Shown in pieces: positions 9,795 to 30,110 of a stretch of 37,175 nt of DNA. Position numbers and translations under genes: made by a program. The notes beneath the pieces were generated by a model. That model searched no databases, was not told the DNA's origin, and worked only from the letters and a program-made list of their open reading frames with translations. Each line of letters opens with the position of its first letter. The stretch's first letter is position 1. Where the stretch lies: positions 1 through 37,175 of the forward strand of contig DYOS01000022.1 of the NCBI GenBank assembly GCA_020720405.1, in the 5' to 3' direction. The DNA is from Caldithrix sp. GTDB taxonomy: Bacteria; Calditrichota; Calditrichia; Calditrichales; Calditrichaceae.

Positions 9795-11216
9795 TTAGTT
9801 CTCATCATTATCACCTAAAATACTAACCGAGCGATAGCCGTTTCCAGAAACCGGTGTTTCTACTTTGATACTTATATACACCTGCGGCGTTTCGAGGCTG
9901 TCGCCCGGAGCCCAGGCAAAGCTGAAATCTGTTGTTCCTGCGCCACTGAATTGTGTATCACGGGTTGTAATATTGACATCACCATAAACCGCTCCATCCG
10001 TGGCTTCAACCGAAATACGGGAACCGCTAACCAGGGGATAACCCCAGATATCCGATATGGTGTAATTAAATTGAAGCGGTGTATTCGTATAATCGAAATT
10101 AAAATGATCCGGTGAAATTACAATCGGACCGGTCTGGCCGGTCAGCAGCAGATTTCCGGAGATGGAAAGCAGGTCAGACTGCAGGGTATCGCCATACGTG
10201 TGAGCTGTGATTTTAGCCAATGAGACAATCTGAGGCTGTGGTGGTAATGGAAAGGCGCTCATGTATTCAACTGTAGCCCGACCCATCTCATCGGTAACTG
10301 CTGCACCTTCAATAATACCGTAATCAGAATTGAAATAAACTATTGTACCCGGCGCCACGGGATTACTGTAGCGGTCGCCAACGAATGCAGTTATCTCATC
10401 GATGATACCGAGATGCACATGGCCGGCAATATTAACATATTCAAAGCCCAGACTCAGATGATCCTGATCGGGCAATCCGCCATATACCGCAACCCGCACC
10501 GGTAATGAATGAACAATATCAGTATCACTTTCCAGCCAGGCGTTTATTTGTACCGGACCGGCAATTGTGCCACTGTTTAAAACCGTATAGGCCAAACCGC
10601 GGACCGTGGTCATGGTATCCGGAAATAGATATTCTCCGCCACCCGGCCCATTCAGAATTTCAAAATGAACCAGCGCTTTATGGTCTGTGTCCACCGGAAC
10701 ACCGGCTGCGTCGGTCACCCTGAACTGAATCATAGCTGTTTCCTGCAGGCCGGAAGTTTTTACATAGACATGCGAGTTATGTTTTCCATAAATCTCAATG
10801 TGGGCCGGTTCTCCGCTTATTTCCTCATCCGGATCGTCAATCGGCAGCGAGTCATTGCCGGCAGTCTTCATCAATACGTCGGGCACGGTGGTTTGCATTC
10901 CGCGTTTTGCCTGAACATAAACCCCATTCAGTTCATAACCGATTTTGCTGACCTGCAGAGTAATATCAAATTCATCCTCTTCACCTTCGGGTTCGAAATT
11001 CAGCGTGAAATTGCCGGCATTATCCGAAACGGTTTGGGTAAAATGATCCTGAACAGTGATTAAGGCACCTTCGAGAGGGAAAACCTGGGTTTCAGACAGA
11101 AAGTAAACCTTCCCTTTCAGGTTCAGCAGACGGTCGGGATCCGTTTCGGAAGTGTCTTTACAGGAAGTCAGAATAAGCAACGTAAAAATAAAGCCAAAGA
11201 GAATAGGTTTTTTCAC
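9795..11216 (-). CDS. Lipoprotein with carboxypeptidase-regulatory-like and Big_1 Ig-like domains
   Basis: A 473-residue predicted lipoprotein. The lipobox LTSC puts the modified Cys at residue 19, after a hydrophobic signal. Residues about 31-115 resemble a carboxypeptidase regulatory-like beta-sandwich (LEGALITVQD, SDNAGNFTLNFE). Further on are invasin/intimin-type Big_1 segments (FVGDRYSNPVAPGTIVYFNS, AAVTDEMGRATVEYMS near residues 280-330), then more strand-rich sequence. The GTG start has GGGAGG 4 bases upstream (11221-11226). It begins 12 bases after pilT and is surely co-transcribed with the pilus genes. It could be a surface-exposed adhesin, a secretion substrate or an accessory lipoprotein of the machine; nothing in it looks like a classic small pilotin such as PilF or PilW. 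Confidence 0.7.
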   Translation of the reverse strand: MKKPILFGFIFTLLILTSCKDTSETDPDRLLNLKGKVYFLSETQVFPLEGALITVQDHFTQTVSDNAGNFTLNFEPEGEEDEFDITLQVSKIGYELNGVYVQAKRGMQTTVPDVLMKTAGNDSLPIDDPDEEISGEPAHIEIYGKHNSHVYVKTSGLQETAMIQFRVTDAAGVPVDTDHKALVHFEILNGPGGGEYLFPDTMTTVRGLAYTVLNSGTIAGPVQINAWLESDTDIVHSLPVRVAVYGGLPDQDHLSLGFEYVNIAGHVHLGIIDEITAFVGDRYSNPVAPGTIVYFNSDYGIIEGAAVTDEMGRATVEYMSAFPLPPQPQIVSLAKITAHTYGDTLQSDLLSISGNLLLTGQTGPIVISPDHFNFDYTNTPLQFNYTISDIWGYPLVSGSRISVEATDGAVYGDVNITTRDTQFSGAGTTDFSFAWAPGDSLETPQVYISIKVETPVSGNGYRSVSILGDNDEN

Positions 11217-11228
11217 AATTCCTCCCTG

Positions 11229-12266
11229 TTAAACTAAATCGGTAAGCTCAATATTTGGAGCCACCAGGTTATATTCTTTGAGCCGTTTCAATCCTTTTTG
11301 GAAGGATTGCATGCCGAACTCCGTTCCAGTCTGGATAGCGTTGTCCAACTGATGCGTTTTACCTTCCCGAATCAGGTTACGAACCGCCGGACTGGCGGCC
11401 ATAATTTCAAGAAGGGCAACCCGGTCGTCCTTCATCGACATGCGCACCAGACGCTGGGCTATTACAGCAACCAATGAGGCGGCCAGAACCATTCTGATCT
11501 GCTGCTGCTGTTCCGGAGGAAAAACATTTATAATACGATCCACTGTTTCCGCTGCCGAATTAGTATGCAGGGTACTCAGAACGAGGTGGCCGGTTTCAGC
11601 GGCATGAAGCGCATTGGTTATTGTTTCCAGATCGCGCATTTCACCAACCAGAATAACATCCGGGTCTTCGCGCAGGGCGCTGCGCAGGGCTGTTGAAAAA
11701 TGATCGGTGTGGCGACCGACTTCCCGCTGGTGAATAACGCTTTCCCGGGGGGTGTGAACGTATTCAATCGGGTCTTCGATGGTAATGATGTGGGCCCGGC
11801 GGGTCATGTTTATTTCATGAATCAATGCCGCAAGCGTAGTTGATTTCCCGCTGCCGGTCGGTCCGGTCATCAGAATCAGACCTTTTTTCCGTTTGCAGAA
11901 CTCACTTAAAACTTCGGGTAACTGCAAATCCTGCAGTGTTCTGATTTTGGCCGGAATCAACCGGAAGGCGGCACTTAATCCATTGAGATGTTTGAAAATA
12001 TTTACCCGGAACCGCACCTGGCCCTGCAGATCAATACCAAGGTCAACTTCTTTCTGCGACTTAATCTGTTTTTTCTGATTTTCATCCAGATAAGGCACCA
12101 GAAATTCGAACAACTCATCTTCTGTAACCGGAGGGGCATCAACCCGTTTTAGCTCGCCGAGCAGGCGCAGTACCGGCGGGCTGCCGGTGATGAAGTGGAT
12201 GTCGGAAGCATTTACCTGGTGGGCAAATTTTAATGTATTCTGAAATATCGGATTCATATTATTCAT
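11229..12266 (-). CDS. pilT: Type IV pilus retraction ATPase PilT
   Basis: A 345-residue cytoplasmic hexameric ATPase that powers pilus disassembly. It has Walker A GPTGSGKST (near 134), the Asp box IEDPIEY, Walker B VILVGEMRD (near 201), a His box (LSTLHTNSAAET) and the C-terminal PilT hallmark VRNLIREGK (near 297) followed by IQTG...GMQSF. That last motif separates PilT from PilB/GspE. The ATG at 12266 overlaps the secretin stop (ATGAATAA), which suggests translational coupling; the frame extends upstream to 12296 without support. There is no pilU. A retraction ATPase in the same operon as GspL-like and GspK-like components is the best evidence that the machine is a retractable pilus. Confidence 0.95.
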   Translation of the reverse strand: MNNMNPIFQNTLKFAHQVNASDIHFITGSPPVLRLLGELKRVDAPPVTEDELFEFLVPYLDENQKKQIKSQKEVDLGIDLQGQVRFRVNIFKHLNGLSAAFRLIPAKIRTLQDLQLPEVLSEFCKRKKGLILMTGPTGSGKSTTLAALIHEINMTRRAHIITIEDPIEYVHTPRESVIHQREVGRHTDHFSTALRSALREDPDVILVGEMRDLETITNALHAAETGHLVLSTLHTNSAAETVDRIINVFPPEQQQQIRMVLAASLVAVIAQRLVRMSMKDDRVALLEIMAASPAVRNLIREGKTHQLDNAIQTGTEFGMQSFQKGLKRLKEYNLVAPNIELTDLV

Positions 12267-13572
12267 TGCCGCTGGGGTTAGTATCCTTGGCCTCATTAAT
12301 GATTTTGGTCGTGATAAAAATCAGCAGGTCGTTCTTTGTCACCTTGATATCGCGGTGCTGAAATAAATAACCTAAAAGCGGGATATCGCCCAGCAACCAG
12401 ATTTTATTGATGATTTCTGATTTTGAATCTTTGACCAGCCCGCCAAGAACCAGAGTTTCACCGTCTTTCAGAATAACGGTGGCTTCGACCTCTCTTTTGG
12501 ATGTAATCGGTTGCGGCGCTTCGGCATCTCCGGTGTAACCAACAATTTCCTCAAGAACAGGATGTACCTGCAAGGTGATATAATCATCATCGCCAATCAA
12601 CGGGATAACATCGAGCCGGATACTGACATCTTTGTCTTTATAGGTAATGATATCACCGGATACACCACGGGAAATTTCCTTGATGGGAATAATCGTCCCG
12701 ATTTTGATACTGGCCCGGCGATTGTTTAGGGTAGTCACCCTGGGATTTGAGATCAGTTTTGATGTGTTGTCTGTGGCCAAAATATCGAGTGTGGCTTTCA
12801 GGTTATCAAAGGTCAGTACACCAAGATTTAGATCATTCGATGAGTTTGGCAGTTGATACCAGGCCGAAAGCAGACTGGCGCCCTGTTGATTATTCTGGCC
12901 CTGCGTGATTGGTGCATTCGTTTCAGCCCCGGTCATTTTTACGCTGACGGAGGTAGGATAATCAATTCCGACTTTTTTCTCATTGCCAACCAGTTTTTCC
13001 ACAAGCCGCACCTCAATCTGAACCTGACGTTCCGGTTTATCCATCTGGCGGATGACTTTTCCGATCTGGCGGACATTTTCCCAGACATCAGTAACAACCA
13101 GTCGGTTTGAGCGAACCAGAGTTTCCTTATCCGCATTTTCCGATTTCAATGCTTCTACTTTGCCCCGCTCGGAAAGCATCGGTTCCAGAGTGTGCTTAAG
13201 GCTAAATCCTTCCAGGTAACGCAGATCAAAAACCTGGCTGGTCAGATCACCATTCAGCTTCATCGCCTCCGGTTTGATGATCAGAACATTTTCACCTATG
13301 ACATAGTGATAACCATTGGCCTTAAGGATTGAGTTAAACGCTTCAGAAAGCGGAACATTTTCAAGAGAAATGGTAACCCGGGCGTTGGCCTCTCCACTGA
13401 TGACCACATTGATGCCGTATTGTTTGGCCAGAAACCGGACAACATTATCCAAAGTTGTGCTGACAAAACTTGTGGTTACTTTTTGTTGAAGAATTTTTTC
13501 CAGCTCATCAGCCCGGCTGATCTGGGTGAAGGCAAAGAGAATGATAAAGAGAATATTCAAGCGGCGGTGCAT
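12259..13572 (-). CDS. pilQ: Short secretin of the T4P/T2SS type (PilQ/GspD family)
   Basis: The outer-membrane channel for the pilus or pseudopilus. A signal peptide (residues 1-21, cut after SRA) is followed by an STN-type domain (about 35-95: DNVVRFLAKQYGINVVISGE, VTISLENVPLSEAF), one NolW/N1 domain (about 112-180: VFDLRYLEG.., NRLVVTD), then the secretin core (about 250-427: LISNPRVTTLNN, VEATVILKDGETLVLGGLVK, IPLLGYLF, ITTKII). At 437 residues it is much shorter than typical PilQ or GspD (about 650-750): it lacks AMIN domains and most N repeats. The start is well supported by AAGGAGAG four bases upstream of the ATG. The symbol is by position next to pilP and pilO; gspD would be equally defensible. 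Confidence 0.9.
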   Translation of the reverse strand: MHRRLNILFIILFAFTQISRADELEKILQQKVTTSFVSTTLDNVVRFLAKQYGINVVISGEANARVTISLENVPLSEAFNSILKANGYHYVIGENVLIIKPEAMKLNGDLTSQVFDLRYLEGFSLKHTLEPMLSERGKVEALKSENADKETLVRSNRLVVTDVWENVRQIGKVIRQMDKPERQVQIEVRLVEKLVGNEKKVGIDYPTSVSVKMTGAETNAPITQGQNNQQGASLLSAWYQLPNSSNDLNLGVLTFDNLKATLDILATDNTSKLISNPRVTTLNNRRASIKIGTIIPIKEISRGVSGDIITYKDKDVSIRLDVIPLIGDDDYITLQVHPVLEEIVGYTGDAEAPQPITSKREVEATVILKDGETLVLGGLVKDSKSEIINKIWLLGDIPLLGYLFQHRDIKVTKNDLLIFITTKIINEAKDTNPSGNE

Positions 13573-13581
13573 AGGCTCTCC

Positions 13582-14043
13582 TTAGTTGGCTAAAGTCAGT
13601 TCTTTCCGCTTCTGACCATCCGAAAGAACAACCCTGGTTTTGGAAATTGAAATTACCGTATAGCCGGCAACCATCTCACCGGTTTTTACTATTTTATCAT
13701 TAATCAGGGCGAAGCTGTTTTCGCCATCGGCATTTGTAGCCTGCAGAACCAGTTTCACTTCAACAACCTGAACGGTTTCCTGGGTGTGAAAGGAGGTACT
13801 GCGTTTGGGTACGATATAAAAAGGATTTGTACCCCAGTTGCTCAAAGCGGCCTGAAAAGTCACTTCCGCCTTAGTTTTTGTTATCTCAGTATTCTCGGTC
13901 TTCTCCGCCACTTTTTGCTTCTTCGAAGAACCCGAATAGAATTTGGAATAGGTTTCGGGGTTATTGATTACATCGATGATAAAAAAGGCCACCACAATGG
14001 CCAGAAATATGAGCAGTCTTTTTTGACTTTTATTGATTTCCAT
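13582..14043 (-). CDS. Pilus assembly protein PilP/GspC-like
   Basis: A 153-residue inner-membrane protein: short cytoplasmic N-terminus, one membrane helix (about 9-26), a charged linker, then a small periplasmic beta-domain. The last 55 residues (SFALINDKIVKTGEMVAGYTVISISKTRVVLSDGQKRKELTL) have the pattern of the GspC homology region/PilP domain, which docks the inner-membrane complex onto the secretin. NPFYIVPKR recalls the DPF segment that starts such domains. It lies between pilO and the secretin, exactly where PilP is expected, 9 bases from the secretin start. Naming is by position and domain shape, since sequence conservation in this family is low. Confidence 0.7.
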   Translation of the reverse strand: MEINKSQKRLLIFLAIVVAFFIIDVINNPETYSKFYSGSSKKQKVAEKTENTEITKTKAEVTFQAALSNWGTNPFYIVPKRSTSFHTQETVQVVEVKLVLQATNADGENSFALINDKIVKTGEMVAGYTVISISKTRVVLSDGQKRKELTLAN

Positions 14044-14054
14044 ATTATTCCTGC

Positions 14055-14597
14055 CTAATCATTCCAGGTGTAAAGTCTGGCACTTATCTGTGCCTGAAGA
14101 AGATTCTGGCCTTCCTGCAACCGGCTAATGGTTATCATTTCCGGGATGACATAAAAGGGCAAAGTTGGCCAATTCTCGATATACCGTCCGATATTTATAA
14201 AATCACCATGAACTGTAATCATGATCGGCAGTGCGATAACTTTGGTAGTCTGACCGCTTAACATGAAATTTTCATCGGTTGAGGTAAAGTCCATCAGCCG
14301 GACATCATACTGACCGGCAAAACTATTCATCGATGAAGTGACAATTGTCAGTTGATCTTTGCGGATAAATTTGCTCTTCTCCTGGTCAAGCCTGGCCTGC
14401 TGTTCCTTAAATTTTTCCTCAATATGCCTGATATTAATATTGGCATTCCGGGCATTTTTCAGCTTGTCGGATATTTGTTCCAGTTTACCCTGCTCAGACA
14501 GCAGTTTCTTTTCTTGCCGTTCAAACCATAAAAAATACCAGCCCGCACCCACAAGAATCAGAGCAACTAATTGGATAATGAAAATCTTTTTTTGCAT
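14055..14597 (-). CDS. pilO: Pilus assembly protein PilO/GspM-like
   Basis: A 180-residue bitopic inner-membrane protein: membrane helix about 6-24, coiled coil about 27-80 (rich in Lys, Glu and Gln), then a ferredoxin-like periplasmic domain (about 85-175) with LPIMITVHGDFINIGRYIENWPTLP, the most conserved PilO stretch. PilO pairs with PilN in the periplasm to form the alignment complex between platform and secretin. It follows the PilM-PilN fusion by 8 bases and precedes the PilP-like gene by 11, the canonical MNOP order. Confidence 0.85.
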   Translation of the reverse strand: MQKKIFIIQLVALILVGAGWYFLWFERQEKKLLSEQGKLEQISDKLKNARNANINIRHIEEKFKEQQARLDQEKSKFIRKDQLTIVTSSMNSFAGQYDVRLMDFTSTDENFMLSGQTTKVIALPIMITVHGDFINIGRYIENWPTLPFYVIPEMITISRLQEGQNLLQAQISARLYTWND

Positions 14598-16752: not shown

Positions 16753-17727
16753 TCAGTTGATCACTTCCCAGGTACTTGCGGTGAAGATGATCGGGCCGCC
16801 GTTTACGGAATGCTCAAGGAGATCATTTATATTTTCCCGGTCATAAATGACCAGGAAGCGGAACGGCCAGAACGCCAAGGTTGTACCTACTGCATTGCCA
16901 TTGCCAATCAAACCGCCAATCAGGTATCGGCCAAGAATCTGAAATTTACACAGGAAATCACCGCCGGCATTGGGCAGGTACATGGTACCATTGGTTACAC
17001 CCAGAGGAAGGATACTACTGTTTATCGTTATATCGTCTCCGGCTACCCAATTTCCGTTATTAATCCAGTTAAAAGTACCAAAGGTGATATCACCTTCAGC
17101 GAAGATCACATCCCTGCTGATAGCAAATACTGAGTTCACCGTGAGATTTCCGGAATAGTAGTGAGCCGGCCTGGCCAGATCACGCAGCACATCAAGATCA
17201 AAGCGGGGCATAAATGCGGCATGGTGCAAAATTTTTCCTGAGGGACTGGTGCTGACCAGCGATGCATTACCAGAGACATATATGCCATACCTGGCCACAT
17301 CAATGTAATTCACGGTTTTACGGATTCGTTTGGTGGTAAAAGCCATACTTCCGGTTGAGACAATTTCAAACTGGGTGCTGCCGATGAAATTCAACTGAAT
17401 ATCACAACTGGCCCCATTGCCCAGTTCCAGGGTTTCGGTATGACCGTGAAGAGACGTGATGGTAGCGTTATTCGAATTCATCCCGGCCGCGTGAACAGAA
17501 ATCGCCCGCATGGCATATTCAATTCCGGACTGGGCGGCATAAAAGGCCTGGCGGTCATTCAGATTAAAAGCATGCATTTTTTTATCAGCCAGAACAATGG
17601 TCACCATGGAAATCGCCATCATACCCATCAGAATCAGGAAAATCAGCGTATTGAGCAAGGCAAAACCACGCTGATTATTTTTAATTTCTGGCAAAAAACA
17701 TGGTTTGAAGTTCACTGCTTTCTCCAT
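16753..17727 (-). CDS. GspK/PilX-like minor pilin
   Basis: A 324-residue prepilin. The leader ends QRG, then FALLNTLIFLILMGMMAIS, with cleavage expected after Gly21. Mature position 5 is Asn instead of the usual Glu, as in GspK/PilX tip subunits, which lack the Glu needed to pair with a subunit below. YAAQSGIEYAMRA directly after the hydrophobic helix is the PilX_N-type signature. The C-terminal 250 residues are strand-rich, with many Asn and Gly, and unassigned. The ATG at 17727 overlaps the preceding gene by 47 bases; the frame continues to a TTG at 17736. Together with the I- and J-like genes it should form the priming tip complex. Confidence 0.8.
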   Translation of the reverse strand: MEKAVNFKPCFLPEIKNNQRGFALLNTLIFLILMGMMAISMVTIVLADKKMHAFNLNDRQAFYAAQSGIEYAMRAISVHAAGMNSNNATITSLHGHTETLELGNGASCDIQLNFIGSTQFEIVSTGSMAFTTKRIRKTVNYIDVARYGIYVSGNASLVSTSPSGKILHHAAFMPRFDLDVLRDLARPAHYYSGNLTVNSVFAISRDVIFAEGDITFGTFNWINNGNWVAGDDITINSSILPLGVTNGTMYLPNAGGDFLCKFQILGRYLIGGLIGNGNAVGTTLAFWPFRFLVIYDRENINDLLEHSVNGGPIIFTASTWEVIN

Positions 17728-18196
17728 TGATCTCAACCGTCAATTCAATTTGGATATAAACAATTTCGGCCAGTGAGACAGCCGGATCCAGATTCTCATC
17801 CAAAAAAGAAAAAGGGTTATTTTGAACATGGCTGATAATGGTATTCCAGGTTTCCCCGGCCCCTTCCTGACGCTGAAGAGCACCGCCAACCGTTTTACGG
17901 AAGGTTATCTGTTCTCCGGCTTCATTCAGGTAACGCAAATATTCTCCGCCGCCAGTCAGACAGATGGCCTGAAGACTGGACTGTTCAATTCCCTGAAGCT
18001 CATTTCTGAGCACCCCGAGTGCTTTGCGCGGTTCCCAATGCGACACGGTCCGGTCCATGACCATATTAAAAGTCTGGACATTAACGCCAAGCAAGCCGAA
18101 GGTAAACAGTGAAAGAATACCAAGCAGGGAAATAACAATAACCAGCTCTAAAAGTGTAAATCCGCCCTGGCGGAAATTTTCAGTGCGGGTCTTCAT
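17681..18196 (-). CDS. GspJ/PilW-like minor pilin
   Basis: A 171-residue prepilin with leader MKTRTENFRQGG and cleavage before FTLLELVIVISLLGILSLFTFG (Glu at mature position 5). After the helix, a globular domain contains HWEPRKALGVLRNELQGIEQ, the pattern typical of J-type subunits, and strands ending LQTMFFARN. The start overlaps the previous gene by 17 bases and its end overlaps the K-like gene. Position between I- and K-like genes supports the J assignment; the globular part on its own is not diagnostic. Confidence 0.75.
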   Translation of the reverse strand: MKTRTENFRQGGFTLLELVIVISLLGILSLFTFGLLGVNVQTFNMVMDRTVSHWEPRKALGVLRNELQGIEQSSLQAICLTGGGEYLRYLNEAGEQITFRKTVGGALQRQEGAGETWNTIISHVQNNPFSFLDENLDPAVSLAEIVYIQIELTVEINGESSELQTMFFARN

Positions 18197-19330: not shown

Positions 19331-20530
19331 TTAGAACATTTTCATCATATCCCACATGGGTAAAAACATGGCTAAGGCCAGAAGAAGAATCATACCGCCC
19401 AGACCTATAGTGATCACCGGTTCGATCAGTGAAGTCAGATTGGCCACGGTATCGGAAACTTCATGACTATAGTACTCAGAAACATTATTCAGCATATCAT
19501 CCAACGAACCGGATTTTTCACCGATCGAGATCATCTCAATCAGGAGTGGAGAAAAATACTTGCTCTGCTTCAGCGAATTGGCAATTTCCTGGCCCCGGAT
19601 AATCCGTTCTGAAACCAGACTGAGCTCCCTTCTATAAACGGCATTCTCCATTGTTTCCTGCATTATCGAGAAAGTATTGGTTATGTTTAGCCCGGTCCGG
19701 TTCATGGTGTAAAACAGCTTGGAGAAACGGGAGAGATTAACCTTGTTTACAAAATCGCCAATAACCGGCAGAGATAACATCAACTGGTCGAATTGCAGCC
19801 GGCCGTTGGGCGTACGGATATAAAACCAGACTCCGGCAATTAGCCCACTGATGGCAAGGACAATCAGAATGCCGTAATGCATAATCGCATAGTGCATTCC
19901 AATCAGGATTCTCGTTGGCAGAGGCAATTCCATTTTCTGGGCCTGAAACATCGGTATAAAATTTGGAATAACCATTGTTGTAAAAACGATAAAGGCGCCA
20001 ATCAATCCGATAGTGACAAACACCGGGTAACGCAGTGCCTTCTTCACTTCTTTACGCATCCGGCTGTCATCCTCGATAAACCGGTAAATATAATTCAGCG
20101 TCTCTTCCAGCGTCCCGCTGACTTCGCCCACCTTGATCGAATTGACAAAAATGGGCGGAAATACTTTTGGAAAGCGGCCGAGCGCACTGGACAGCGTGCT
20201 GCCCTGTTCAATATCATGGCTGATCGATTCAACCACTTCCTTGAAGTTTTCATCTGAGGTCTGTTCTTTTACCGCTCTGAGGCTGGAAACAATGGGCAGC
20301 CCGGCCTTTAATAAAGTATAAAGCTGCTTTGTAAAATGAAGAATGGTGACATCTTTTATTTTCAGATTGAATTGATCGGTTCTTTTTTTAGACTTGATCT
20401 CGGTGACATTGATAACCACCATGCCCAGTTCACGCAATTGTGTCATCACATCGCCGGAATCACGGCCGAGAAGCACACTTTCAATCATCCGGCCTTCGCT
20501 GTTTACTGCTCTGTACTTAAAATTCGGCAT
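19331..20530 (-). CDS. pilC: Type IV pilus platform protein PilC/GspF
   Basis: A 399-residue polytopic inner-membrane protein on which the PilB and PilT ATPases act. It has two T2SSF repeats: about 70-190 (LYTLLKAGLPIVSSLRAV, VFPPIFVNSIKVGEVSGTLEE) and about 270-395 (LFYTMNRTGLNITNTFSIM, FSPLLIEMISIGEKSGSLDDML). The duplicated GE.SG.L pattern is diagnostic. Membrane helices are near 168-190, 215-235 and 368-392, and the C-terminus PMWDMMKMF is typical. It sits between pilD and the first pilin gene with 15-25 base gaps. The ribosome site is weak. Confidence 0.95.
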   Translation of the reverse strand: MPNFKYRAVNSEGRMIESVLLGRDSGDVMTQLRELGMVVINVTEIKSKKRTDQFNLKIKDVTILHFTKQLYTLLKAGLPIVSSLRAVKEQTSDENFKEVVESISHDIEQGSTLSSALGRFPKVFPPIFVNSIKVGEVSGTLEETLNYIYRFIEDDSRMRKEVKKALRYPVFVTIGLIGAFIVFTTMVIPNFIPMFQAQKMELPLPTRILIGMHYAIMHYGILIVLAISGLIAGVWFYIRTPNGRLQFDQLMLSLPVIGDFVNKVNLSRFSKLFYTMNRTGLNITNTFSIMQETMENAVYRRELSLVSERIIRGQEIANSLKQSKYFSPLLIEMISIGEKSGSLDDMLNNVSEYYSHEVSDTVANLTSLIEPVITIGLGGMILLLALAMFLPMWDMMKMF

Positions 20531-20545
20531 ATTATTTTTTCTTTA

Positions 20546-21304
20546 TCAGAATAAATTCAGGTACACGTTTGCAATACTATCGCCAAAAAAAATAAAAATT
20601 AAAGTGCTTAGTGAGAGAAAGGGACCAAACGGCACCAATCCGGCTTGAAATCTGAATGATCCAAGGCGCATAATAGCAGCAAAAACAAGAACCATCACCG
20701 CTCCGGTATAGAAAGCAAGCAGGCTGAATTTCCAGCCGATAACCAGGCCGGCTGCCGACATCAGTTTAACATCACCCAGACCAAGGCCATCTTTCCGCAA
20801 TACAAAGCGGGATAATAAGGCCAGCGCATAAAGGGTGATACCGGTGATCAGCGCCCCACTCATGACGAACCGCCAGCTCCTGACCTCAAAAATAACATTA
20901 TAAACCAGAAAGAAAATTACAAACAAAAGAAGAATCCGGTCCGGAATAAGCAGAACATCAAGATCGATAAATGAAACGGCGATGAGGACATAAGCTAATA
21001 ATACAATCAGGAAAAACTCCGGTCTGAAACCAAACCGGCTGAAAGAATAAAGCGTGACCAGTGCCGAAATAAATTCCACGAAAAAATAGCGCACCGAAAC
21101 AGGCGCATGGCAGAATGCACAGCGTCCGCGCAGAAAAACAAACGACAGTAGTGGAATATTCTGATACCAGCGTAAAGGTTGATGGCAGTGCGGGCAATGG
21201 GAAGCCGGCTTAACCAGCGACTCACCTTTTGGCAGGCGATGGATGACCACATTCAGAAAACTGCCGGCTATGGCACCAAATACAAAGATAAACGACTCAA
21301 TCAT
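20546..21304 (-). CDS. pilD: Prepilin peptidase / N-methyltransferase
   Basis: A 252-residue membrane aspartic protease that cleaves prepilin leaders after Gly and N-methylates the new terminus. Residues 11-22 (AIAGSFLNVVIH) and the two CxxC pairs Cys37/Cys40 and Cys62/Cys65 belong to the methyltransferase/zinc region. The protease motifs are FIDLD....PD (Asp114, Asp116) and GLGDVK (Asp178). About seven hydrophobic helices follow. The start overlaps the pilB stop by four bases (ATGA type), so the two are coupled. It should process all five prepilins encoded downstream. Confidence 0.96.
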   Translation of the reverse strand: MIESFIFVFGAIAGSFLNVVIHRLPKGESLVKPASHCPHCHQPLRWYQNIPLLSFVFLRGRCAFCHAPVSVRYFFVEFISALVTLYSFSRFGFRPEFFLIVLLAYVLIAVSFIDLDVLLIPDRILLLFVIFFLVYNVIFEVRSWRFVMSGALITGITLYALALLSRFVLRKDGLGLGDVKLMSAAGLVIGWKFSLLAFYTGAVMVLVFAAIMRLGSFRFQAGLVPFGPFLSLSTLIFIFFGDSIANVYLNLF

Positions 21305-23619
21305 AAAAGCCTGAAATCTACTTTTTCACCAGTTTGGTCAGGTTTTTGACCTGTTTCTTCCTTTAGTTCTGTTGCAACGGATGTTCTCCTGGCCGAGCGA
21401 TCGAGCATGCGCCGGATTCGGGCTACCAGAATATCGCGCTGAATAGGTTTGGTCAGATAATCGTCAGCACCAAGTTCGAGCCCGCGCAGTTCATTTTGGG
21501 ACGACTTCATGCTGGTCAGCATCAAAACCGGGACATTGGCTGTTTCCGGAGCAGCCCGCAAATGCTGTAAAAATTCATAACCATCCATTCTCGGCATCAT
21601 TATATCCAGAAGAATTACATCCGGTATTTTCCGGGTTATCTCTTCAAGGGCGGAAATACCATCAGAGGCTTCACGTACCGTCATATTGGTGGTTTTCTCA
21701 AGTATGGTCCGGATCATAGTCCGGGCTACATTAAAATCGTCAACAATCAAAACGTCCGGGCGGAATTCCGCTTCGGGCACGGGGCTATCCCCGGCCGGCA
21801 GACCGGTCAGCGGATGCGGCTCTTCTGTTTCATTGGCCGGGATAATCTGGTCTGCCTCGGGCAGATTGGGCTGGCTGGCCTCCGGTACAATTCGGGCGGA
21901 AGAGACCCCTGCCGTTTCTTCACCGTCATCAACGGTGGAATGCATGTTCCGTAACACTTCTTTATAATCGGTAATGCCATCGGCCACCAAAGACAGAGCA
22001 TCTTCAAACAGGTTGCGGAAACCTGCTTTCCGGGCATGACTCCGGATTTCCTGCAAATTGGTCTGACCGCCGATCAGCTGTTTGAGCTCATTATCGATGA
22101 TCAGGATTTCATAAACCCCGATCCGCCCCTTATAACCGGAATAATCACATTTCGGACAACCCTTGGCCTCAAAGGTCTGCGGCTGATGGCCAAGACTGTT
22201 TAGCATTTTGGACAGCTTCGGATCGATCTGATCTGCCTGAACGCTGACCTTGCAATGCGGACATAGTTTGCGGACCAGACGCTGGGCGACAATGCTTTGG
22301 ATGGAATCGGTAATTTTTACAACATTGATTCCCATATCCATCAGACGGGTGATGGTGGCAAAGGTATCGTTGGTGTGCAATGTGCTCAGCACCAAATGCC
22401 CGGTCAACGCGGCCTGGATGGCGATTTCCGCTGTTTCGCGGTCCCGTATTTCACCAACCAGGATAACATCCGGATCCTGGCGCAGAAATGAGCGCAAAGC
22501 GCTGGCAAAGGTGACACCGGCTTTTTCATTAACCTGAACCTGGTTTATACCTTCAATCATATATTCAATCGGGTCTTCGATGGTCAGAATATTGTTGGCC
22601 GTGGAGCGAATGCGGTTAATGGCGGCATACAGTGTGGTGCTTTTTCCCGAACCGGTTGGCCCGGTTACCAAAATCATACCCTGCTTAAAACCGAAGCACT
22701 CTTCCAGCAATTTCTGGTTGTGGCCGCGGATACCCATTTTGGCAAATGAAACCATGGCTTTGCGTTTATCGAGCAGGCGGATGACCACCTTTTCACCAAA
22801 AGTGGTCGGCAGAACGGATACACGAAGATCGATATCGGCATCGTCAATATAAATTTTGGCTTTGCCATCCTGCGGTTTGCGGGTTTCAGCAATGTTCAGC
22901 GATGAAATAATCTTGATCCGGCTGATCAGCGTTTGATGGGCGGTGCGCGGCAGCTCGACCACATTCCTTAGAACACCGTCAATCCGGTAACGAACCAGAA
23001 CTTTCTGCTCTTTGGGTTCGATATGGATATCGCTGGCACCGCCTTCAGCGGCATCGAACAAAATCTGGCTGACCAGGCGGACCACCGAAGAATCCTGCGC
23101 CGCCTCATCACCTTCAATGCGCAGGTTTACCGAACGTGTTTTCCCGTCCATGTATGAATCGATAAATTTGTCCGGTGTGAAGTATTCACTGATTTTGAGA
23201 TTTATCTGTTCTTTATAGGCGAAATAGGTTTTTACATACTTCCCGGTCAGCTGCTCAATTTCACCTTCGGCTTCCAGGTTGGAGGTATTAAAACAAGCGA
23301 CATGAATATGTTTATCAACTGATTTAAAGGGAATAAGCAGATGCCGGCGGCAGAAATCCTCAGGAAATTTTTTGATCAGCTCGCCATCTACCTGAACTTT
23401 ATCCAGATCAATGGTCGGGATTTTTAAGGCCTTCTCGATAAAAACAGCAATGTCTTCTTTTTCCAGATAACCGTTTCCGGTCAGGATATCAAAAAAGTAA
23501 TCATCCTCCGCAAAGCGCCGGGACAGTTCATCAAAAAGACCCTGTTCAATAATCTGATAATACAAAAGGGCTTCGACGAGCCAGTCATCATTAAATTTTT
23601 TCTTTGTTTGTAAAGCCAT
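21301..23619 (-). CDS. pilB: Pilus extension ATPase PilB/GspE fused to a C-terminal receiver domain
   Basis: A 772-residue protein. Residues about 1-150 are a degenerate T2SSE_N/MshEN region. About 180-560 is the hexameric ATPase: GPTGSGKSTT (Walker A near 320), DPIEY Asp box, VILVGEIRDRET, LSTLHTNDT, and a CPHC...CPKC zinc clasp (about 453-490), as in PilB/GspE and unlike PilT. After an acidic, Pro-rich linker (about 565-618) comes a full CheY-like receiver domain (about 620-740): the acidic pair in LIVDDF (near 626), phospho-acceptor Asp near 672 (DVILLDIMMPRMDG), Thr/Ser switch (MLTSMKS) and the YLTKP lysine. The fusion would place pilus extension under direct phosphorelay control. It is the first gene of the operon; no sensor kinase lies in the window. 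Confidence 0.93.
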   Translation of the reverse strand: MALQTKKKFNDDWLVEALLYYQIIEQGLFDELSRRFAEDDYFFDILTGNGYLEKEDIAVFIEKALKIPTIDLDKVQVDGELIKKFPEDFCRRHLLIPFKSVDKHIHVACFNTSNLEAEGEIEQLTGKYVKTYFAYKEQINLKISEYFTPDKFIDSYMDGKTRSVNLRIEGDEAAQDSSVVRLVSQILFDAAEGGASDIHIEPKEQKVLVRYRIDGVLRNVVELPRTAHQTLISRIKIISSLNIAETRKPQDGKAKIYIDDADIDLRVSVLPTTFGEKVVIRLLDKRKAMVSFAKMGIRGHNQKLLEECFGFKQGMILVTGPTGSGKSTTLYAAINRIRSTANNILTIEDPIEYMIEGINQVQVNEKAGVTFASALRSFLRQDPDVILVGEIRDRETAEIAIQAALTGHLVLSTLHTNDTFATITRLMDMGINVVKITDSIQSIVAQRLVRKLCPHCKVSVQADQIDPKLSKMLNSLGHQPQTFEAKGCPKCDYSGYKGRIGVYEILIIDNELKQLIGGQTNLQEIRSHARKAGFRNLFEDALSLVADGITDYKEVLRNMHSTVDDGEETAGVSSARIVPEASQPNLPEADQIIPANETEEPHPLTGLPAGDSPVPEAEFRPDVLIVDDFNVARTMIRTILEKTTNMTVREASDGISALEEITRKIPDVILLDIMMPRMDGYEFLQHLRAAPETANVPVLMLTSMKSSQNELRGLELGADDYLTKPIQRDILVARIRRMLDRSARRTSVATELKEETGQKPDQTGEKVDFRLL

Positions 23620-25325: not shown

Positions 25326-28300
25326 TTATTTTTCCTGTGCTAAATCTTTGACTAATCCGGCGTATTTGTGTTCAACCTTAAATCCGAAGCGGTAAAAATA
25401 TTCCGGGCGTAAAAATCCCGTTGTCACATAGCGGATGTGGGCGGCTTTCAGGCGCTCGAAAAATTCCTTCATTAACCCTTCACTTATACCCTTCCTCCGG
25501 TAACGGTCGGCCACAACAATTTTTTCCATCTGTACCGTTTCATCATCAATGCGGGTGAAAAACAAACCGCCAATAATAAATCCCCGTTCGGCGATAGCCA
25601 GCAGAAACTGGTGTTCCGGCCGGAATTCGACCGGCAGGTTGGACTCCAGAAACATCTGATGCAGGCGGGAAATTTCTTTTGGCATAACCGGCCCTCGAAC
25701 CCGGAAAATCTCCCCATCATAGTCTTCCATCTGCACCACCACATCGGCGACCAGTTTTCCTTCCTGTTGGCTGCTTAAAAGTTCAGCCTGATCGGTCGGT
25801 TTCAGATGCGGGTAAGATAGGCGGCTCAGGAAAAACTGTTCGTTCCCGGTCAGGCTGAAAATATTGTTCAGCGCTGTGAAGCGCTGCTGCAATTCTTCGC
25901 TGCCCAGCCGCTGGTGATGCTGCTGATGACAAATATCGCGCAGGGCCTCGCGCAATTCATCACCGCCGTGCCGGAATACCGTTTCCAGGTAAAAACGGGT
26001 CCGGGTTTCGGGGTAGTGCAGTTCCAGCGCCGAAAGCTGATACGTACTGAATAATTCGTTGAGCAGGCTGGCCCGGGCGGCATTGGTAGCCTGCGGACTA
26101 AGTTCGCGCCAGCGGTGATAGCGGCGGATGGCAAAATAGAGATTTTTCGGGGTAAAGCCGCAGTGTTCAACTTCTTCAATAAGCTGCCCGGCCTGTTTCT
26201 GCAGCAAACTGAAAATATCCTGATCCGCCGCTTCCCGCGGCGAACTCTCTAAAATCTGGCGCAGGCGTCTCAGACCGCTCGCCTCACCCTCAATATCAAA
26301 CAGGGCGGTCAGCATAAAATAGGACATATCATCCCGTTTAAGCTGGGGATAGGTTTGCTCGGTTTCGATTACAAACTGGCGGTAAAAATCGATGAGCAGG
26401 GCGGTCACATCCTGATTTTTCCGGCGCCGGGCGATGGAAACAAAACGCACCCCGGTTTGATAATCGTGCTCGGGTATGACAATATTGGCCGTGGTTTTTA
26501 CGGCCAGTTCAACCTGGTAATTGGAACGGCGCCAGAAACTGAGATGGGCGCCCACAGCGCTGCGCACAAAAAAAGGCCAGAGATGGTAAGCCCGGTTCTC
26601 CTGTTCATCACCTTTGCGGCGCTGAACCCGGCCTAAAAAGCGGCTGACCGTATCACCGGAAATATACTCTTCCGTCCAGGCCATATATTCTTCCCAGTAG
26701 CCGCCGAATTCCTCCACCAAACGGATACCGCGGCGCGGCGCACCGGCATGAACCAGCCAGAGCATTTCATTGCTGTGTTCGATAGGGTCACCGCTGCGGA
26801 TCATATTCAGTACAATATCATAAGAACCCTGATAGCGGGTCTGGACCGAGATACGGTATACCGGTTTGTCGGGGCTGTCATCGAGCAGGCTGATCCAGAC
26901 ACCGCCCAGCGGAATATCATATAAGCGGACAATATTACCGTTGGAAAAAAGAAAAATGGCTTCGCGCAGCATAGGTGTTTTTTCAATAATACTGACCAGT
27001 GTCGTTTTTTCATTCAGGCTGATCCGCTCCTCGAACGTGACCACATCCGGCCAATGGTATTCTTCTCCGGTTTCCACATCCACTGCGACCGGCTGATTAT
27101 CACCCAGCCATTGCCGGAAACCGCGCCGCATGCGCTCGCGGCTGACCGAGGCCATGCGCGAAACCTGCGCTAAATCTTCGCGCAACTGATAGCGCACCTG
27201 CAACTGGCGCAGGCGTTTGAACTTGGTCGGGTGGCGGATGCCCATTTCAGCCATAAGCATAAAAAGAGCGTTCAGTGCGGTTTGATTTGGCCGTGTACCC
27301 TGTTCGATACTGTTGATTTCATTTTTGATCAGGGCATGGAGGGCGGTAATATCGTGGTCCGTTTTCAGCTCGCCGGCCAAAAAGGAAGTCAGGCTGTCAT
27401 CCAGAAAAGCCGGGTTCTGATTTATAAAAGTGAACAGGTATTTTTCCAGAGCCGCACCTTTATTCAATCCCAAACCCAGCCGGAAATAGAGACGCTGCAC
27501 CTCGGCATTGGCATTCAAACCAGGCCGCCGCACCAGTTCCACCGCCAGCGGATAAATGGGCAAATGGCGGTCCTGCAGAATGGTTTTCAGATAATCGGCA
27601 CCTATTAAAGCCTGGCTTACATCCGGAGACTGCAGAAGCTGGACTGCCAAATTCAGCCCGCTCAACGACAGTTCGCGGCCATTAATTCTTTCGGATAATT
27701 CCTGAACCAGCGGGTAAAAATTGGCCTGCAGCAGGCGGCTCTCGACAAAATCGATGGCATCGTTGCGCACATCCAGACGGTACCACTGAAAAATGGCTTC
27801 ACCGGCAAACTGAATCAGGGCCACATTGCCCAGCCAGTACAGCGGATTGTATAAAAATAGCTGCAAATCCAGGTGGGAATTCCCGCAACTGTACACAAAA
27901 TCACCCAGCCGGATCTGCCCTGAACCAATTTGGGAGATCGAAATTTCCATGTTCAGTTTTGGTATGGCCAGGGTTTCGCCACGGAAAACGATATCGTGCA
28001 TCAGGCAGCCTTTTTCCCGCAGAAACCAGTTGGGCAGCTGGACTTCGAGACTGCCGTTGGACAAGGCCACATAATTTTTCTGATACATCTCATCGATCTG
28101 CGTGCTGAAATTCTTCTCAATCAGCCGTCTTTTGTAGGTGCCTTTCGGTGTCAGTTCACCCAGTGCTTCGCTAAAGGCGCGCCCGGTCAGCCTAAAATCA
28201 AGGATGCGCTCAAAGGGCGCCAGAAATTTGTTGACCGTAACCACCAGCGAGGAGAAAAAATTGCGGACAGCGGCTGGCTCTCTTTCTGGCAGACTTTTCT

Positions 28301-30110
28301 GAATATTTTCATCATTTGGGTAAATCAGCACCGTATTAAACGGACGGTGATCGCCAACCAGGAAAACCTGGCTTACACTGTCAAAATCACGGAACAGGTT
28401 TTCGATTTTCTGCGGGGCAATCGTTTCTCCACGGATGTTTTTATAAATCTCCTTCTTGCGGTCAATAATTTCGAGGTAGCCATTGCTGTCCCGGCGCATG
28501 ATATCCCCGGTCGGAAACCAGCCGTCGGTAAAAGTTTCAGCCTGTGTTTCAGGCCCGTAATAACCGGCCATAACATAATCACCGCGGATTAAAAGCTCGC
28601 CGTCATCGGCCAGTTGCACTTCAATTCCCGGCAGGGCCTTGCCCAGTGAATTAGCCACATATTCACCGGGATAGGTCATGGTAATACCACCGGTTGCCTC
28701 GGTCATGCCAAATCCGCTGAGCAGTTGAATATCGTAGCGCTGGAAAAACAGAAAAACTTCCGGATCGAGATAGCCGGCCGCGCTTAAACCCCAGCGCAGA
28801 CTTCCGCCGGTTGCCTGCTGAACCACAGCCCGTATTTCTTCGTCCTTGTCAAACTCGATATCGACCTGACTGGTGATGTGCTCATACAACTGATACCATT
28901 TTTTAGGGATGCTGATAAAAACCGTCGGCCGGGAACGCTGCATATTATCGAGCATGGTGTTCAGGGCCGGGTTTTCCATAAAGGTATATTCCGCCGCCCA
29001 GAAGATAGCCCCTGTCATCTCAAACCAGCGGCCAAAGGTGTGGTAAAGCGGCAGATAAGCCAGAAAGCAATCCTTCTCGCCGATTTCAGGTAGAGCCATA
29101 GCCCGGCAAAAACGCTTAAAGACAATATTCATATTACTGAACATAATGCCTTTCGGATCACCGGTCGTGCCCGATGTGTACATAATTGAAGACAGGTCAT
29201 CGGGTTGGATATTTTCGGCCAGAGTACGGATTTCATCCGCAGTAACGCCGGCACCCTGCTTTAGAAATTCATCCTTTGACAAAACCATTTTTTCAATGCT
29301 GTTACCGCTGAACAATACCGCTTTTTTCAGCTGCGGCAAACGACCCTGCAGAGATTTCAGCTTGGCTAATTGTTTATCATCGTGCAGGAAAATCAGGCTG
29401 GCCCCGGATTGCTGCAGGATAAACTCGATTTGCTGGGGTACGGAATTAGCCGGGATCATCACATTGACATAACCGGTGCGCAGACAGGCCAGATCGAGCA
29501 GCACCATTTCCAGGCTGTTCTCCATTAAAAAGGCCACTTTCTGGCTGCGGTCGGGCAATTGGGCAACCAAAGCCCGGGCATATTTTTCAATAAGAGTATC
29601 CGTCTGCTGCCAGGTAAATTTCTGTTCGCCGCTCGGCTCCAGCACCCTGAATAATAATTTGGCCGGGTAATCTGCCAGGCGTTGTTCGAACAGACGGTTA
29701 AAGGTAAATTTCGACTCACGGATCAGGCGGCGGACCAGTTCAACCCATTGCGGCTCATAATGTATGCGCCGCAGCAGGGCGCTGTAACGAACCAGATTCA
29801 GCCAGAGCCAGGCGGTTTGTTGCTCTTTCCCGCCACCATTTCCGGAATTTGGCTGTATCGATTCGCCCCAGGCCAGAAAAACGCTGAGCTCGATTTCCGC
29901 AAGTATGGCCGGAATAAGATCATTATGGCTGGCGGTGCGGAAGATGCTTTGCCAGAGCTTTTCATTTTCGGGGCCTGCCATGGGAGGTTGGGCAGTGAAC
30001 AAAATACAGATTTCATTGATCAGTTTTATTTTTTCATTTTCGGTCAGGGCACCGGCACCGGCCTGAAGGCGGGATAAAATATTTTCGGAAGATTTCACAA
30101 AACTCTCCAT
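25326..30110 (-). CDS. Giant AMP-forming acyl-CoA synthetase-like protein with unassigned middle region and C-terminal GNAT domain
   Basis: A 1594-residue single frame. Residues about 150-690 are an ANL-superfamily adenylation domain of the long-chain acyl-CoA ligase kind: MYTSGTTGDPKG (near 311), YLPLYHTFGR, GFGMTEATGG, GWFPTGDI, and YLEIIDRKKEIYKNIRGE..APQKIE (near 553). The A10 region reads ELTPKGTYKRR (near 650); where relatives have the catalytic Lys, as in TPTxKxKR, a Thr seems to stand. About 690-1440 has no family I recognise; its C-terminal half contains strand-rich then helix-rich sequence (VWISLLDD, YRISVQTR, EEYMAWTEEYISGDTVSRFL) that faintly recalls a kinase-like fold. About 1445-1594 is a GNAT domain with RYRRKGISEGLMKEFF near 1532. 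No signal peptide. A GTG at codon 5, preceded by GGAGAG, is an alternative start. Substrate and role are unknown. Confidence 0.85.
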   Translation of the reverse strand: MESFVKSSENILSRLQAGAGALTENEKIKLINEICILFTAQPPMAGPENEKLWQSIFRTASHNDLIPAILAEIELSVFLAWGESIQPNSGNGGGKEQQTAWLWLNLVRYSALLRRIHYEPQWVELVRRLIRESKFTFNRLFEQRLADYPAKLLFRVLEPSGEQKFTWQQTDTLIEKYARALVAQLPDRSQKVAFLMENSLEMVLLDLACLRTGYVNVMIPANSVPQQIEFILQQSGASLIFLHDDKQLAKLKSLQGRLPQLKKAVLFSGNSIEKMVLSKDEFLKQGAGVTADEIRTLAENIQPDDLSSIMYTSGTTGDPKGIMFSNMNIVFKRFCRAMALPEIGEKDCFLAYLPLYHTFGRWFEMTGAIFWAAEYTFMENPALNTMLDNMQRSRPTVFISIPKKWYQLYEHITSQVDIEFDKDEEIRAVVQQATGGSLRWGLSAAGYLDPEVFLFFQRYDIQLLSGFGMTEATGGITMTYPGEYVANSLGKALPGIEVQLADDGELLIRGDYVMAGYYGPETQAETFTDGWFPTGDIMRRDSNGYLEIIDRKKEIYKNIRGETIAPQKIENLFRDFDSVSQVFLVGDHRPFNTVLIYPNDENIQKSLPEREPAAVRNFFSSLVVTVNKFLAPFERILDFRLTGRAFSEALGELTPKGTYKRRLIEKNFSTQIDEMYQKNYVALSNGSLEVQLPNWFLREKGCLMHDIVFRGETLAIPKLNMEISISQIGSGQIRLGDFVYSCGNSHLDLQLFLYNPLYWLGNVALIQFAGEAIFQWYRLDVRNDAIDFVESRLLQANFYPLVQELSERINGRELSLSGLNLAVQLLQSPDVSQALIGADYLKTILQDRHLPIYPLAVELVRRPGLNANAEVQRLYFRLGLGLNKGAALEKYLFTFINQNPAFLDDSLTSFLAGELKTDHDITALHALIKNEINSIEQGTRPNQTALNALFMLMAEMGIRHPTKFKRLRQLQVRYQLREDLAQVSRMASVSRERMRRGFRQWLGDNQPVAVDVETGEEYHWPDVVTFEERISLNEKTTLVSIIEKTPMLREAIFLFSNGNIVRLYDIPLGGVWISLLDDSPDKPVYRISVQTRYQGSYDIVLNMIRSGDPIEHSNEMLWLVHAGAPRRGIRLVEEFGGYWEEYMAWTEEYISGDTVSRFLGRVQRRKGDEQENRAYHLWPFFVRSAVGAHLSFWRRSNYQVELAVKTTANIVIPEHDYQTGVRFVSIARRRKNQDVTALLIDFYRQFVIETEQTYPQLKRDDMSYFMLTALFDIEGEASGLRRLRQILESSPREAADQDIFSLLQKQAGQLIEEVEHCGFTPKNLYFAIRRYHRWRELSPQATNAARASLLNELFSTYQLSALELHYPETRTRFYLETVFRHGGDELREALRDICHQQHHQRLGSEELQQRFTALNNIFSLTGNEQFFLSRLSYPHLKPTDQAELLSSQQEGKLVADVVVQMEDYDGEIFRVRGPVMPKEISRLHQMFLESNLPVEFRPEHQFLLAIAERGFIIGGLFFTRIDDETVQMEKIVVADRYRRKGISEGLMKEFFERLKAAHIRYVTTGFLRPEYFYRFGFKVEHKYAGLVKDLAQEK

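Follow-up and report, generated by a model that had tools for sequence, protein, structure and literature searches.

The window analyzed here, a 37,175-nucleotide stretch of a Caldithrix sp. genome, carries a run of type IVa pilus genes on its minus strand that opens with a gene for an extension-type ATPase fused to a receiver domain, here called PilB-REC, and closes with the gene for a 473-residue protein (Table 1). The catalytic core of PilB-REC is intact, with a Pfam T2SSE match at residues 173–557 (E 9.6e-137, 456 bits) that includes the Walker A (residues 319–326), GEIRD (389–393), and His motifs expected of a PilB, along with four invariant Cys residues (453, 456, 488, and 491). Ahead of the core is a region that matches MshEN (residues 66–148, E 8.6e-15), and behind it come a linker, a match to Response_reg (residues 623–736, E 1.5e-30, 106 bits against a cut-off of 30.2), and a short tail. 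The initial annotation had described the linker as acidic, and its composition agrees (14 Asp/Glu, 2 Lys/Arg, and 10 Pro in 64 residues). An AlphaFold2 model built from 25 aligned sequences (mean pLDDT 80.0) predicts a helical part followed by an α/β part for the N-domain, disorder for linker residues 563–617 (pLDDT <50) and for tail residues 747–772, and a complete five-stranded (βα)5 fold for the receiver, with pLDDT blocks mostly near 90. With a pTM of 0.52, the model does not confidently place these domains relative to one another.

Table 1. Genes of the pilus operon, domains of PilB-REC, and a Chp-like cluster located elsewhere in the same genome
Feature	Position	Strand	Basis or remark
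PilB-REC, extension-type ATPase with C-terminal receiver	21301..23619	(-)	772 aa, ATG start
MshEN-like N-domain, ~aa 8-150	23170..23598	(-)	Pfam MshEN 66-148; c-di-GMP motif absent
T2SSE ATPase core, aa 173-557	21949..23103	(-)	Pfam and PDB structure matches
Linker, aa 559-622, acidic and proline-rich, predicted disordered	21754..21945	(-)	composition and model
Receiver domain, aa 623-736, phospho-acceptor D672	21412..21753	(-)	Pfam, alignment, model
C-terminal tail, aa 747-772, predicted disordered, ending VDFRLL	21304..21381	(-)	alignment and model
PilD prepilin peptidase	20546..21304	(-)	Pfam; start overlaps pilB stop by 4 bases
PilC/GspF platform protein	19331..20530	(-)	Pfam and NCBIfam
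Four prepilin-like genes, 112, 120, 147, and 171 aa	17681..19305	(-)	N_methyl matches
327-aa protein, conserved in operon	16753..17736	(-)	weak PilX_N match, below cut-off
PilM-like protein, 708 aa	14606..16732	(-)	family scores below cut-off
PilO	14055..14597	(-)	Pfam
153-aa conserved operon protein, PilP position	13582..14043	(-)	weak CdsD_C match, below cut-off
Short PilQ-like secretin, 437 aa	12259..13572	(-)	family models
PilT retraction ATPase	11229..12296	(-)	445.7 bits vs cut-off 319.1
473-aa protein, lipobox-like start	9795..11216	(-)	CarboxypepD_reg-like match, below cut-off
Chp-like cluster	L209 6707-17197 (G000:C177)		own genome

Identity of the Operon and Its Motor

The family models for PilB and GspE score PilB-REC nearly equally and both fall short of their cut-offs, with 554.3 bits against 675.65 for the NCBIfam PilB model (TIGR02538) and 548.5 bits against 630.25 for the GspE model. 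The name PilB therefore rests on the operon, with its PilT above cut-off and its PilQ-like secretin, and on fold matches in the PDB. In a fold search with the model, the top E-value belonged to GspE-GspL of Vibrio vulnificus, and the closest overlays were with Geobacter PilB and Thermus PilF/PilB (46–48% identity over ~387 columns). PilB-REC shares the fold of the ATPase core with these two motors but extends beyond it with a linker, a receiver, and a tail, and its N-domain has lost the c-di-GMP motif. Its partners are those of a type IVa PilB, namely pilC, pilD, a pilM-like gene, pilO, a pilQ-like gene, and pilT, where the PilM match is below cut-off; no gene of the operon was identified by family as PilN or PilP. 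On the strength of PilT and PilQ we class the system as a type IVa pilus, and PilB-REC is, as judged by the operon around its gene, a PilB-type extension motor. It is also the sole extension-type ATPase found by a T2SSE profile search of its own genome (3.33 Mb in 266 contigs), in which PilB-REC and PilT were the two matches above cut-off and a third fell below. The PilB-type motor with a built-in receiver described in the initial annotation is thus real, with a receiver that appears intact and phylum-wide, although the "PilB" in that description cannot be drawn from a family score.

A different assignment would make the operon a type II secretion system rather than a retractable pilus, with the receiver gating secretion. 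Beyond the similar GspE and PilB scores, this assignment can point to GspF as the best model for PilC and to GspG among the top pilin models. The operon nevertheless contains a PilT above its curated cut-off, the best model for its secretin is PilQ, PilB-REC co-occurs with PilT across genomes, and the folds that overlay best are those of pilus motors. A type IV pili cluster is also reported in the C. abyssi genome paper. Taken with these observations, a secretion system seems highly improbable.

Gene order in the operon is retained in the relatives examined. A homologue of the 473-residue protein follows pilT in G005, G006, G007, G016, G017, and G018, and none was recognized at the operon in G023 and G021; this lipoprotein-like protein may belong to the pilus machine. 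Counterparts of the 327-residue operon protein are 562–565 residues long in G016, G017, and G018, and G009 has two copies in tandem. Elsewhere in the window, a gene at 25326-30110(-) encodes a 1594-residue protein with N-terminal AMP-binding domains, a C-terminal GNAT acetyltransferase domain, and a middle region without a Pfam match.

The Receiver in Calditrichota and Beyond

The receiver of PilB-REC has the full set of CheY-like features. An acidic pair (D627/D628), a phospho-Asp, a switch Thr (T702), and K724-P725 all align on the predicted (βα)5 fold, and the phospho-Asp that the initial annotation had put near position 672 is exactly D672. Alignment of these residues had been named beforehand as a point on which the reading could fail, and it passed: D628, D672, K724, and P725 are invariant in 25/25 phylum rows, and the T702 position is Thr or Ser in all of them. 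Mean majority identity per column is 0.63 in the receiver compared with 0.30 in the linker and 0.34 in the tail, and selection thus appears to retain the receiver, which from its sequence is apparently intact.

Searching for further fusions, as the initial annotation had proposed, found PilB-REC in 25 of 40 Calditrichota genomes, the present one included, which rules out an assembly or frameshift artifact. PilT was found in 23 of the 40, and the two proteins go together: both occur in 22 genomes, PilB-REC only in 3, PilT only in 1, and neither in 14 (Fisher p 3.9e-7, computed on genomes that are related and hence not independent). The three genomes with only PilB-REC are one that is 76% complete (G004) and drafts of 680 and 390 contigs (G013 and G024), and the one with only PilT (G039) is 62% complete. 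An operon PilB without a receiver was not seen in this 40-genome sample. All Calditrichota orthologues found carry the receiver, and a receiver-bearing PilB is apparently phylum-wide. Receiver-less T2SSE relatives do exist in the phylum, both in genomes that lack the operon and, in G019, G024, and G027, as paralogues alongside the fused protein. A contig scan returned mostly unrelated receivers; the only fused homologue among its 80 loci (L029) was identical in length and scores to the G011 protein and was treated as the same and counted once.

Outside the phylum, a profile of 25 rows was run against 385 genomes, 345 of them from other phyla, with two candidates scored per genome, which makes the resulting counts lower bounds. 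Fused proteins occur in at least 5 of the 345 genomes (G136 with two copies, G100, G241, G195, and G126), with receivers confirmed by Pfam except for that of G126, which was recognized by our own receiver profile at 110.8 bits. The Asp, Thr/Ser, and Lys are kept in all six intact fused proteins from these genomes, and in G195 the KP is replaced by KT. A seventh outside protein, from G329, has a degenerate receiver that scores below cut-off and is missing both the KP lysine and strand one, where the acidic pair would lie.

A tree of the ATPase domain, with the receiver excluded, divides 31 fused from 29 unfused proteins by one branch (support 95/86), where the unfused rows are high-scoring matches from searches with the fused proteins and where G034 and the degenerate G329 protein were left out. 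This split fits a single old fusion. An earlier version had included three PilT sequences, whose long branch bisected the phylum group; the final tree omits PilT and includes additional unfused rows. Three outside fused rows sit on long branches, and branching among the outside rows is weakly supported. In the receiver tree, which was filled up with 70 further rows that were the top scorers among 149 candidates, 24 of 25 phylum receivers form one group (91/86) with that of G024 unplaced, and the six outside receivers are scattered over several places with weak support, so that this tree is compatible with one or with several origins of the receiver itself.

The initial annotation had called the N-domain degenerate, and a scan for the c-di-GMP motif of MshEN, in the strict and relaxed forms defined in PMC5013675, bore this out with matches in 0 of the 20 rows (of 25 aligned) that span the region. 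PilB-REC lacks the two 24-residue RLG...Q motifs of MshEN c-di-GMP receptors, and its N-domain is, on this sequence evidence, degenerate with the motif lost. With that motif gone, the receiver may be the chief regulatory input of PilB-REC. One of the G136 copies retains the motif together with its receiver, and the two inputs are thus not mutually exclusive in general. A broader and more tentative reading, which we hold to be possible without calling it probable, is that PilB-REC represents an old pilus-motor subfamily of single origin spread across several lineages, in which two-component phosphorylation is wired into each subunit of the extension hexamer and in Calditrichota has replaced c-di-GMP sensing at the motor. 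If this is true, pilus extension in Calditrichota would be controlled after translation chiefly by phosphorylation.

Proposed Control of Pilus Extension by Phosphorylation

It is an open question how signals set the time and place of pilus extension, and most known inputs act via separate adaptors or second messengers. The statement in the initial annotation that control usually comes through separate proteins is correct, and the closest precedent is EmvR of Xanthomonas oryzae, a single-domain response regulator that acts as a PilB-binding repressor (PMC11973254). EmvR lowers the ATPase activity of PilB by ~40% in a non-competitive manner with Km almost unchanged, and its action requires D15, D59, and T87 (PMC11973254). 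For Synechocystis, binding of the CheY-like protein PixE to the extension motor PilB1 has been reported (review PMC7690835). PilB-REC would resemble EmvR in having a phospho-receiver act on PilB, with Asp and Thr both needed in EmvR itself, and it differs in that EmvR is a protein with its own gene whereas the receiver of PilB-REC is covalent and present once per ATPase subunit. PixE and the other PATAN-REC regulators that act on cyanobacterial PilB1 are likewise separate proteins and have a PATAN domain. MshE and other MshEN ATPases under c-di-GMP control share the N-domain and ATPase families with PilB-REC, which departs from them in lacking the c-di-GMP motif and in the C-terminal location of its receiver. 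One sentence in PMC5013675 already records MshEN in association with receiver domains. This prior mention of the pairing, together with the same fusion in other lineages, lowers the novelty implied by the initial annotation. The largely open-access literature searched held no description of a receiver fused to the C-terminus of PilB or GspE, and a term search of the main text of a review of PilB control did not find the word "receiver." Phospho-receiver control of PilB is known, and PilB-REC would represent it in a covalent and apparently phylum-wide form.

The simplest reading of the fused receiver is EmvR-type control in cis, and direct switching of pilus extension by a kinase is plausible. 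This proposal starts from the architecture, from a receiver whose chemistry is intact and invariant, from the operon, from an N-domain that has lost the c-di-GMP motif, and from a genome in which no other extension-type ATPase was found; to these we add phosphorylation, a kinase, an effect on extension, and its sign and target, all of which we infer. PilB-REC would be a type IVa extension motor with a tethered receiver whose D672 is the target of a kinase from another locus of the genome, possibly an orphan histidine kinase or the Chp-like CheA system. Depending on its phospho-state, the receiver would dock differently on the ATPase hexamer or on partner proteins of the motor, and this change in docking would set whether the pilus extends. 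As to the sign, repression upon phosphorylation is our favored guess because EmvR, a separate receiver, has a repressive effect on PilB that depends on its own Asp. We consider this proposal probable. Support comes from the invariance of the receiver residues in all 25 phylum rows and their retention in the six outside proteins, from the presence of a receiver in every Calditrichota orthologue found and its tracking of PilT (22/3/1/14), from the genome search that found no second extension-type T2SSE ATPase, from the lack of the c-di-GMP motif, and from the precedents of EmvR and PixE. It is weakened by the low confidence of the interdomain arrangement and by the lack of a consistently linked kinase. 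Receiver domains can also act without phosphorylation, which counts against the proposal as well.

The search for a kinase covered the window, the relatives, and the rest of the genome. Pfam scans found no kinase gene among the window ORFs that they covered, and in the relatives examined none accompanies the operon consistently. There, the gene upstream of pilB varies among lineages: miaA in G016 and miaA plus mutL in G017 (the two genomes of family f2 scanned), a PEPCK-like gene in G005 and G009, and unshared two-component genes in G006 and G007. With these differences between relatives and no kinase among the scanned window ORFs, a neighboring gene was rejected as the source. The initial annotation had suggested looking for co-occurring orphan histidine kinases. 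The genome has 63 HATPase_c matches, 62 of them above cut-off and not all of them kinases, and among the best 30 of these loci a receiver is in the same ORF in 11, in the ~1.5 kb flank in 8, and in neither place in 11. The last group does supply orphan candidates, but 11 among the best 30 are too many to name one kinase, and no single partner was singled out. The Chp-like cluster encodes a ParA-like ATPase, a protein with a C-terminal REC, CheW, an MCP, a 1692-residue CheA-like protein (Hpt, CheW, REC), and a TonB_C/β-helix protein, and CheW is matched in 39 of the 40 genomes of the phylum. ORFs are arranged similarly in G005, G007, and G017, and also in G025, which has no PilB-REC; co-occurrence thus fails to single out the Chp-like system, and it was rejected as a dedicated kinase.

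The same lack of a linked kinase in the relatives would fit a receiver that has a constitutive role in structure or docking, or that serves as a sink for phosphate, with phosphorylation irrelevant to extension. Degenerate receivers such as that of G329, without the acidic-pair strand and KP lysine, would fit as well. Retention of the Asp, Thr/Ser, and Lys in 25/25 phylum rows is unexpected for a dead receiver, and we give this explanation little credence.

The receiver could instead serve as an address label, with phosphorylation setting the location of PilB (at a pole, an array, or a partner) rather than its catalytic rate and with the tether and the C-terminal peptide recruiting the motor. 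The model predicts a long disordered linker and tail, and an acidic-hydrophobic end motif (VDFRLL, EFKLI, ELQLM, and similar), counted by eye in 13 of the 24 orthologues with an intact C-terminus, is a possible docking peptide. According to reviews, the REC domain of FimX, which lacks the Asp, influences pilus localization, and cyanobacterial PilB1 bears a C-terminal extension that binds Hfq. Several lineages, however, keep the receiver without the tail motif, and EmvR is reported to affect ATPase rate. An address label is on these grounds unlikely, and we prefer control of extension by the phospho-state of the receiver. Under that preferred reading, a pilus motor may be controlled directly by a sensor-kinase signal instead of via a separate messenger protein, and a motor with its own receiver makes such control testable in one purified protein. 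If PilB-REC works like EmvR in cis, receiver control of PilB would have evolved in two forms, one as a separate protein and one built into the motor.

Linkage to signaling genes looks more suggestive outside the phylum, where two genomes show such genes near the fusion. In G136, each of the two PilB-REC copies (L163; L165/L166) lies among two-component genes, and the copy that keeps the c-di-GMP motif is ~120 bases after a REC-PAS-GGDEF-EAL gene. In G100, a hybrid kinase is encoded ~0.8 kb downstream of PilB-REC on the opposite strand.
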